The notes under the pieces: model-generated | Database searches by the model: none | What the model was told of the DNA's origin: nothing | Seen by the model: the letters and a program-made list of their open reading frames with translations, nothing else | Shown: positions 3,127-13,003 of the stretch, piece after piece | Numbering within the stretch: position 1 is the stretch's first letter | Layout of the letters: each line of letters opens with the position of its first letter | Program-made: the position numbers and the translations under genes | NCBI GenBank assembly: GCA_007376195.1 | Contig: VMFT01000004.1 | Coordinates: 1 to 43,580, forward strand | DNA length: 43,580 nt | From: Parcubacteria group bacterium Gr01-1014_29 | Lineage (GTDB): Bacteria; Patescibacteriota; Minisyncoccia; Ryanbacterales; 2-02-FULL-48-12 | Direction: 5' to 3'

Positions 3127-3174
3127 GTGCCAAAAATTAAGGAGTGATAACGACTATAATTTTTGAGCATCCCG
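3121..3174 (-). repeat. 54-bp leader repeat shared with the rpmG upstream region
   Basis: Read on the minus strand, these 54 bases run from CGGGATGCTCAAAAA to TTTTTGGCACATGGCA and include the prfA start codon. They align without gaps to 13070-13123, which ends in the rpmG start codon, with 46 of 54 bases identical by my count. A CCCGAGCGAAGCGAGGG-type hairpin lies directly upstream. This may be a mobile leader or promoter module. Confidence 0.75.
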
Positions 3175-3344
3175 AGCGAAGCGAGGGATTTCCAAAAGAA
3201 TTTTTGAGTACGTTCACTGCGTTCAGTATCTTCGACATCCCGAGCGAAGCGAGGGATTTCCAAAAGAGCGAGGGATTTCCAAAAGAATTTTTGAGCACGT
3301 TCACTGTGCTCAGTATCTTCGACATCCCGAGCAACGCGAGGGAT
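3168..3344. repeat. Imperfect tandem array of CATCCCGAGCGAAGCGAGGG units
   Basis: Three copies of the hairpin word CATCCCGAGCGAAGCGAGGG begin at 3168, 3236 and 3323 (the third has CAACG for GAAGCG). They are joined by nearly identical spacers containing CCAAAAGAATTTTTGAG and TTCAGTATCTTCGA. Copies 1 and 2 are 68 bases apart. Copies 2 and 3 are 87 apart because 19 bases are duplicated. Each CCCGAGCGAAGCGAGGG can fold on itself. The array separates prfA from rpmE. Confidence 0.85.
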
Positions 3345-3350
3345 ACCTAA

Positions 3351-5338: not shown

Positions 5339-5368
5339 TTGACTTTGCCGCCCTAGCTCAGTGGTAGA

Positions 5369-5387
5369 CCTGCCCGCCCTTGCCTGA
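5369..5387 (+). repeat. Left inverted repeat of the tRNA-in-tRNA insert
   Basis: CCTGCCCGCCCTTGCCTGA. It pairs imperfectly with 5460-5477. The same CCTGCCCGCC word follows GGTAGA at 12893, beside tRNA-Thr(GGT). Confidence 0.75.
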
Positions 5388-5459
5388 GCCGGAGTAGCTC
5401 AATGGCAGAGCAGTGCTTTTGTAAAGCAAAGGTTAGGGGTTCGAATCCTCTCTCCGGCT
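5388..5459 (+). tRNA. tRNA-Thr(TGT), nested inside 5347-5527
   Basis: Acceptor GCCGGAG/CTCCGGC (7 bp), D arm GCTC-AATGGCA-GAGC, anticodon loop TTTGTAA with anticodon TGT, and T arm AGGGG-TTCGAAT-CCTCT. The first anticodon-stem pair (G-A) is mismatched. CCA is not encoded. It has the same anticodon as the tRNA it interrupts but a different body sequence, so it is likely the working copy. Confidence 0.93.
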
Positions 5460-5477
5460 TAGGCGATGGCAGGCGGG
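5460..5477 (+). repeat. Right inverted repeat of the tRNA-in-tRNA insert
   Basis: TAGGCGATGGCAGGCGGG, the imperfect reverse complement of 5369-5387 (about 14 paired positions). It contains GGCAGGCGGG, also found after tRNA-Thr(GGT) at 12993-13002. Confidence 0.75.
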
Positions 5478-5580
5478 GCAGCTGTTTTGTAAACAGCAGG
5501 CCGTCAGTTCGAATCTGACGGGCGGCTCAAGGCATGTTGGGCGCGGTAATGAGTTCTTATTATAAAATAAAAATAATTAT

Positions 5581-12828: not shown

Positions 12829-12892
12829 GCCGTTGTAGCTCCCGCCAGAAGGGCGAGGCTCGCTCCGACGTGGTCGGAGCGGCAGCGGTAGA
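12829..12892 (+). pseudogene. Possible 5' remnant of a tRNA, split by a hairpin
   Basis: GCCGTTGTAGCTC (12829-12841) and CAGCGGTAGA (12883-12892) together look like the first half of a tRNA up to the D loop. They are separated by 41 bases containing a hairpin. The second piece is followed by CCTGCCCGCC, exactly as in the interrupted tRNA-Thr at 5359-5378. No 3' half is found after 13003, so this may be coincidence. Confidence 0.4.
12861..12881. repeat. CTCCGAC/GTCGGAG palindrome, copy 1
   Basis: CGCTCCGAC-GTG-GTCGGAGCG, 9-bp arms. The same CTCCGAC/GTCGGAG arms make up the perfect 42-bp palindrome inside mnmA at 16515-16556. Confidence 0.75.
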
Positions 12893-12911
12893 CCTGCCCG
12901 CCACAGCCAAA
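12893..12911 (+). repeat. Left inverted repeat flanking tRNA-Thr(GGT)
   Basis: CCTGCCCGCCACAGCCAAA. It has an inverted partner at 12985-13003 and a close relative at 5369-5387 beside the nested tRNA-Thr. Confidence 0.7.
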
Positions 12912-12984
12912 GCCCACGTAGCTCAGTTGGTAGAGCAACTCCATGGTAAGGAGTAGGTCCGCGGTTCAAATCCGCGCGTGGGCT
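12912..12984 (+). tRNA. tRNA-Thr(GGT)
   Basis: Acceptor GCCCACG/CGTGGGC, D arm GCTC-AGTTGGTA-GAGC, anticodon arm ACTCC-ATGGTAA-GGAGT (anticodon GGT), T arm CCGCG-GTTCAAATC-CGCG-type. CCA is not encoded. It is enclosed by inverted repeats of the family that flanks the nested tRNA-Thr(TGT). Confidence 0.93.
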
Positions 12985-13003
12985 GTGGCTTTGGCAGGCG
13001 GGG
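12985..13003 (+). repeat. Right inverted repeat flanking tRNA-Thr(GGT)
   Basis: GTGGCTTTGGCAGGCGGGG. GGCTTTGGC pairs with GCCAAAGCC on the left side, and GGCAGGCGGG matches the right repeat of the nested tRNA-Thr locus. Confidence 0.7.

Follow-up and report, generated by a model that had tools for sequence, protein, structure and literature searches.

tRNA genes nested within cognate tRNA genes in Patescibacteria: probable serial replacement by palindrome-ended cassettes

Within a 43,580-nt stretch of a Patescibacteria genome, the whole of which we refer to as the window, a tRNA-Thr(UGU) gene is split in its D-arm by a 109-nt insert that carries a second, complete tRNA-Thr(UGU) gene between imperfect inverted-repeat arms. 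We conclude with good confidence that this locus is a replaced tRNA gene, and that it belongs to a process of serial tRNA gene replacement by palindrome-ended cassettes. In the mechanism we propose, a non-coding cassette made up of a left arm beginning with CCTGCCCG, a complete but promoterless foreign tRNA gene and a right arm ending in GGCAGGCGGG would insert in the sense orientation into the D-arm of the resident tRNA-Thr(UGU), a single-copy gene, with neither duplication nor loss of target sequence. The transcript initiated at the resident promoter would then carry the intact inner tRNA, which RNase P and 3'-processing enzymes would presumably release at its own ends; the resident halves would become leader and trailer, and would subsequently decay. 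The same process could be repeated on the new copy to give nests of two or three, and would have reached many isoacceptors in the phylum.

Structure of the nested locus and its counterparts in the same genome

The insert (5369-5477) divides the outer, resident gene into a 5' half at 5347-5368, comprising the acceptor 5' strand GCCGCCC and the D-arm as far as GGTAGA, and a 3' half at 5478-5527, comprising the GC of the D-stem, an anticodon arm with TGT, the T-arm and the acceptor 3' strand GGGCGGC; all features of the window described in this section are on the forward strand. Joined without loss or gain of a nucleotide, the two halves form a perfect cloverleaf in which 7/7 acceptor pairs are made, and ARAGORN calls the joined sequence tRNA-Thr(tgt) in 36/36 trial cuts. 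The left palindromic arm (5369-5387, CCTGCCCGCCCTTGCCTGA) and the right palindromic arm (5460-5477, ending in GGCAGGCGGG) enclose the inner tRNA at 5388-5459, which is recognised by ARAGORN (5387-5460) and by Rfam RF00005 (5388-5459, 66.7 bits). Of the 44 tRNAs recovered from this genome, the inner one is the sole intact tRNA-Thr(UGU), and it is probably the functional copy. The insert consists of arms and tRNA only and encodes no integrase. Measured over 5369-5394 and 5452-5477, a span that takes in the inner acceptor stem, the inverted arms are ungapped and 81% complementary. The first-pass annotation had described a tRNA-Thr inside the D-arm of another with the same anticodon, an outer gene that pairs perfectly once 109 bases are removed, and a frame of imperfect inverted repeats; sequence, ARAGORN, Rfam and the call on the joined halves all agree with that description.

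The 182-nt locus folds at -96.3 kcal/mol (z = -6.5), with 0/200 shuffled sequences equally stable, and in this fold the insert forms one long stem that closes exactly at both junctions. When the window was scanned with Rfam at the gathering threshold, only tRNAs were returned, with no group I or other intron family. A scan for one promoter type, in which matches were no more frequent than in shuffled sequence, gave no own-strand promoter-like match upstream of the window outer. Nests of this kind are a trap for tRNA annotation: at this locus ARAGORN reports a false extra tRNA-Thr at 5453-5528, which is the outer 3' half supplied with a spurious 5' end. We rejected an assembly artefact, a very unlikely source of the nested pattern, because the pattern recurs in many independent assemblies, including a genome that consists of a single contig (G120, locus L103).

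Six further nested loci in the genome, one of them within the window, had been overlooked in the first-pass annotation. When looser arms are allowed, 7 of the 44 tRNAs are nested, namely Thr(UGU), Thr(GGU), Val(CAC), Arg(CCG), Arg(UCG), Arg(UCU) and Pro(UGG), the last of these twice over; Thr(CGU) is plain. For Arg(UCG) and Val(CAC) the anticodon of the outer gene, judged by eye, still equals that of the inner copy. Isoacceptors are mostly single-copy in this genome, and its 1.08 Mb contain six copies of the arm end GGCAGGCGGG, five of which flank a tRNA. In the second nest of the window, a decayed outer tRNA is represented by a 5' remnant at 12829-12892 (GCCGTTG TAGCTC .. CAGCGGTAGA), itself interrupted by a bare palindrome at 12842-12882, and is followed at 12893-13002 by a cassette with the same palindromic ends, identified from these shared ends and by Rfam, that carries a complete tRNA-Thr(GGU) at 12912-12984.

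Recurrence of the cassette and its placement in cognate tRNA genes

Defining the cassette by its repeat ends, CCTGCCCG.. and ..GGCAGGCGGG, around a tRNA, we found 122 tRNA-bearing cassettes among the matches listed in public genomes, almost all of them from Patescibacteria; the end of the left arm is common to all 122 and to the bare copies. The paired-end pattern yielded about 62 matches in 384 genomes of the class, compared with 2 for a reversed control. A complete tRNA is present in about 23 of these ~62 matches (Thr, Arg, Pro, Val, Cys, Gly and Gln), and the remainder are mostly bare copies of ~100 nt, several per genome and mostly intergenic. In the joined-flank analyses described below, about 11 of the 41 matches classed as 'bare' are probably chance coding matches in other phyla and are not to be counted as elements. 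A GTDB scan for the arms around a T-loop motif returned at least 115 stretches, again almost all from Patescibacteria. The same arms nest a tRNA-Leu or a tRNA-Val in contigs labelled Ignavibacteria/Bacteroidota (L234, L249 and L290), so that, misbinning of these contigs aside, the range of the element may extend beyond Patescibacteria. No cassette was found among 2.9 million viral contigs (IMG/VR), and carriage by phages was accordingly rejected. A survey of tRNA-Thr genes in the class showed many of them to be nested, up to three levels deep, and several families of arms and several cut sites are represented. As a control, flanks were joined around tRNAs with and without strong flanking repeats: a tRNA spanning the cut resulted in 65 of 158 of the former and in 16 of 227 of the latter.

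We compared the joined flanks of the 122 cassettes with 487 tRNAs from other loci and with random controls. An outer tRNA scoring above every random control was detected in 114 of the 122, in the same orientation as the inner tRNA in every case (114/114), and its nearest relative had the same amino acid as the inner tRNA in 107 of these 114. For five of the seven exceptions ARAGORN calls the cognate tRNA on the joined flanks; the other two, L238 and L243, have arginine-type remnants on one side and are the least certain. The eight cassettes below the detection threshold show cognate remnants by eye. Once the insert is removed, a callable outer of the inner tRNA's isoacceptor is obtained in 58 cases, with matching anticodons in all 58. 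Conflicting calls on joined outers are explained either by cuts in the anticodon whose position is ambiguous or by damage that additional palindromes have done to the outer, and the apparent amino-acid mismatches (L180, L268, L273, L275 and L290; L291, L310 and L328) were dismissed on the same grounds or as the product of a thin reference panel. Cut sites in 56 of the 58 callable outers lie in the D-arm (23), the anticodon (29) or the T-loop (4).

All 122 tRNA-bearing cassettes are thus in tRNA genes and none lies outside a cognate tRNA gene, whereas the bare copies are mostly outside tRNA genes. At two loci (L038 and L339) the D-arm and the anticodon loop of a single outer tRNA-Thr each hold a complete cassette, and both cassettes are of the outer's own isoacceptor.

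Origin of the inner copy and fate of the outer gene

The median identity between inner and outer copies is 0.73, against 0.71 between inner copies of different loci. Inner and outer genes are as unlike as unrelated genes of the same type, and the inner gene is therefore foreign, not a local copy. At the window locus the two are 62-65% identical; the inner gene is 93% identical to plain genes in two genomes (G199 and G079), and the outer gene is 93% identical to a plain gene in a third (G200). Because this plain tRNA-Thr in G200 is identical to the joined outer over 46 nt across the junction, the outer halves must once have been one gene, as had been supposed in the first-pass annotation. In relatives, uninterrupted counterparts occur at two nested sites: a plain tRNA-Gln in G064 corresponds to the L179 site (89% over the tRNA and upstream DNA), and a plain tRNA-Pro(UGG) in G181 corresponds to the L207 site, where the upstream gene aligns, the outer 3' half is conserved and the 5' half has decayed.

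Across loci, the outer genes are generally in decay. Joining the flanks fails to recover the matching tRNA for 64 of the 122 outers, and recognisable outers have a mean of 0.96 stem mismatches compared with 0.22 in their inner partners (p = 4.5e-4, uncorrected for shared ancestry), although 26 of 55 show no mismatch in the three stems scored. In four loci of a variant insertion type (L010, L065, L085 and L115), the insertion has removed the 5' arm of the outer's anticodon. We identified 62 split structures in which the outer acceptor retains 7/7 pairs; 53 of them enclose an entire inner tRNA, and in no case was an empty interruption convincingly seen. This suggests that the cell does not tolerate an interrupted tRNA gene unless a replacement comes with it.

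Two accounts that dispense with replacement can be weighed against these results. If the inner gene were a diverged local duplicate of the outer, the shared isoacceptor and orientation would follow directly; but even with an intact outer the two genes are just as different as genes at unrelated loci, and their closest relatives differ. Local duplication is therefore extremely improbable, and for the window, with copies 62-65% identical that match different plain genes at 93%, we reject it. The other account, put forward in the first-pass annotation by analogy with Nanoarchaeum, is intron-like: the palindromic stem would hold the outer halves together, the insert would be excised from the RNA and the halves ligated, so that both tRNAs mature. 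The exact closure of the long stem at the junctions is what such a process would need, roughly half of the outers remain tRNA-like (26 of 55 being free of mismatches in the three stems scored), and a match to the RtcB ligase family is present in 9 of 15 genomes with nested loci or bare copies, that in the window genome being weak and partial. Yet the tRNA splicing endonuclease (PF01974) was detected in none of these 15 genomes, with four archaeal controls positive; there is no Rfam intron family match in the window; outers accumulate mismatches and some have lost the anticodon; and the 62 split structures with perfect outer acceptors mostly hold an inner tRNA and are never convincingly empty. 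Across the 122 loci the outers do not behave as exons under selection, the window outer being an exception. Taken together, the endonuclease, ligase, outer-decay and empty-interruption results lend splicing or a split tRNA no support, and we consider it very improbable. As a separate observation, the weak RtcB-family match of the window genome (G000:C29:7592-7999) is placed by the search in an open frame of 24,159 residues.

The replacement reading, which the first-pass annotation had offered as the other possibility, fits the shared isoacceptor, the foreign inner gene, the decay seen at about half of the loci, the anticodon losses and the uninterrupted relatives. The inner tRNA is accordingly likely to be transcribed and processed, and the window outer is probably dead. 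Against this stands the outer gene at the window itself, which, unlike many other outers, is intact with zero stem mismatches and is possibly still under constraint. The negative promoter scan upstream of it, with the limits given above, the lack of phylogenetic independence among nested loci and the failure to find a transposase or autonomous element with these ends also tell against replacement. The perfect state of the window outer would fit a recent insertion; by sequence alone, recent death and residual function look the same.

Mode of insertion and comparison with known systems

How replacement cassettes reach their targets can be read in two ways. Under free transposition followed by selection, cassettes would land anywhere and only sense-oriented, cognate hits in single-copy tRNA genes would survive. 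The dispersed bare copies share the cassette ends, most isoacceptors are single-copy here, so that non-cognate insertions would be costly, and the constant orientation is consistent with reliance on the resident promoter. This scheme, however, predicts many cassettes in neutral intergenic DNA, where the bare copies are found, and all 122 are in tRNA genes; the second cassettes at L038 and L339 are also of the own isoacceptor, though freed of that constraint. The contrast in placement between cassettes and bare copies is not easily produced in this way, and counts to that extent against replacement by freely moving cassettes, which we disfavour and consider unlikely. Alternatively, recombination guided by tRNA sequence could direct the cassette to a cognate gene, with selection acting afterwards, for example on imported DNA in which a cassette already lies between cognate halves. 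The same-amino-acid, same-orientation placement of 122/122 cassettes, the cognate second cassettes and the clustering of cuts all agree with this; on the other side, no recombinase was identified, the founding placement of a tRNA between arms is left unexplained, and inner-outer identity is merely about 73%. Given that none of the 122 cassettes is intergenic and that L038 and L339 hold own-isoacceptor doubles, we therefore favour insertion directed by tRNA homology, to which we would give slightly less than an even chance; a possible route is homologous recombination of imported DNA in which cognate halves already surround the cassette. More tentatively still, a dedicated Patescibacteria process might move cassettes between cells and target each to the gene for its own isoacceptor, a phylum-wide serial overwriting from the inside that would leave nested fossils behind.

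Searches for a mobiliser bear on both readings. In eight genomes, no pairs of the same 12-bp ends lie at a distance expected of an autonomous transposon. A REP/IS200-type Y1 transposase was considered and rejected: only 8 of 15 genomes have one, and four genomes that lack it (G201, G209, G162 and G174) nevertheless have several bare copies. No target-site duplication was seen where the insert lies in a tRNA gene, and the seeming 7-bp repeats that accompany a few bare copies are in low-complexity DNA.

Prophages and integrative elements use tRNA genes as integration sites, and the incoming DNA restores tRNA function. The cassette resembles these elements in entering a tRNA gene and in restoring lost function from the incoming DNA, but it is 109 nt long and lacks an integrase, brings a whole replacement tRNA instead of a 3' end, and cuts in the D-arm, anticodon or T-loop, and the resident gene dies. 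With MITEs, REP sequences and Rickettsia palindromic elements it shares a length of ~100 nt, the absence of coding capacity, imperfect terminal inverted repeats and dispersed bare copies. It is short, non-coding, inverted-repeat-bounded and multi-copy, with the reservation that bare copies occur in other genomes of the class and that GGCAGGCGGG in the window genome is almost only beside tRNAs. It differs from MITEs in carrying a complete, apparently functional tRNA, in that the tRNA-bearing form was found in cognate tRNA genes alone, and in having no clear target duplication and no autonomous partner that we could find. The cassette thus resembles a MITE in size and ends, and we do not class it as one because neither a target duplication nor a partner transposase has been demonstrated; a review of prokaryotic MITEs makes no mention of tRNA (PMC10969869). 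Archaeal split, permuted and intron-containing tRNAs and bacterial group I introns (PMC4033280) likewise involve a structured insert that interrupts a tRNA gene, but for the nested loci there is no splicing endonuclease in the 15 genomes searched and no intron family match in the window, and the outers decay. Bacterial tRNA genes have been described as 'surprisingly uniform', with introns only of group I/II and at 37/38 (PMC4033280). Eukaryotic Dada DNA transposons also target small-RNA genes, including particular tRNA genes; they differ from the cassette in having their own DDE transposase, 6-7 bp target duplications and multicopy gene targets, and in bringing no replacement tRNA (PMC3706591).

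In the open-access literature we found no earlier description of tRNA genes nested inside cognate ones. tRNA genes present in one copy are often taken to be stable markers of vertical descent. The nests indicate that, for many isoacceptors, a foreign cognate gene has probably replaced the resident one from within, and that the fossil left behind documents which gene was replaced and at what place; with such nests, horizontal replacement of tRNA genes could be counted and dated directly.

Other palindromic sequences were seen in similar settings. A different, two-hairpin palindromic element (e.g. TCCCGA..TCGAGGATCCTCGA..TCGGGA) occurs in tRNA-Thr genes at seven loci (L078, L122, L137, L019, L007, L103 and L073), at times with a tRNA in its second hairpin and at others bare. 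At L318 (~1140-1280), one cut in tRNA-Arg is occupied by two elements that share their ends, one bare and 32 nt long and the other carrying a tRNA, arranged head to tail. The minus strand of L304 (~2200-2443) has tandem partial 3' halves of tRNA-Thr(UGU) with GC-rich palindromes between them, perhaps an intermediate of such rearrangements. Within the window, positions 3144-3350 contain a frame with a repeated palindrome-coded peptide (HPERSEGFPKEFLSTFT) of the dispersed-repeat type.
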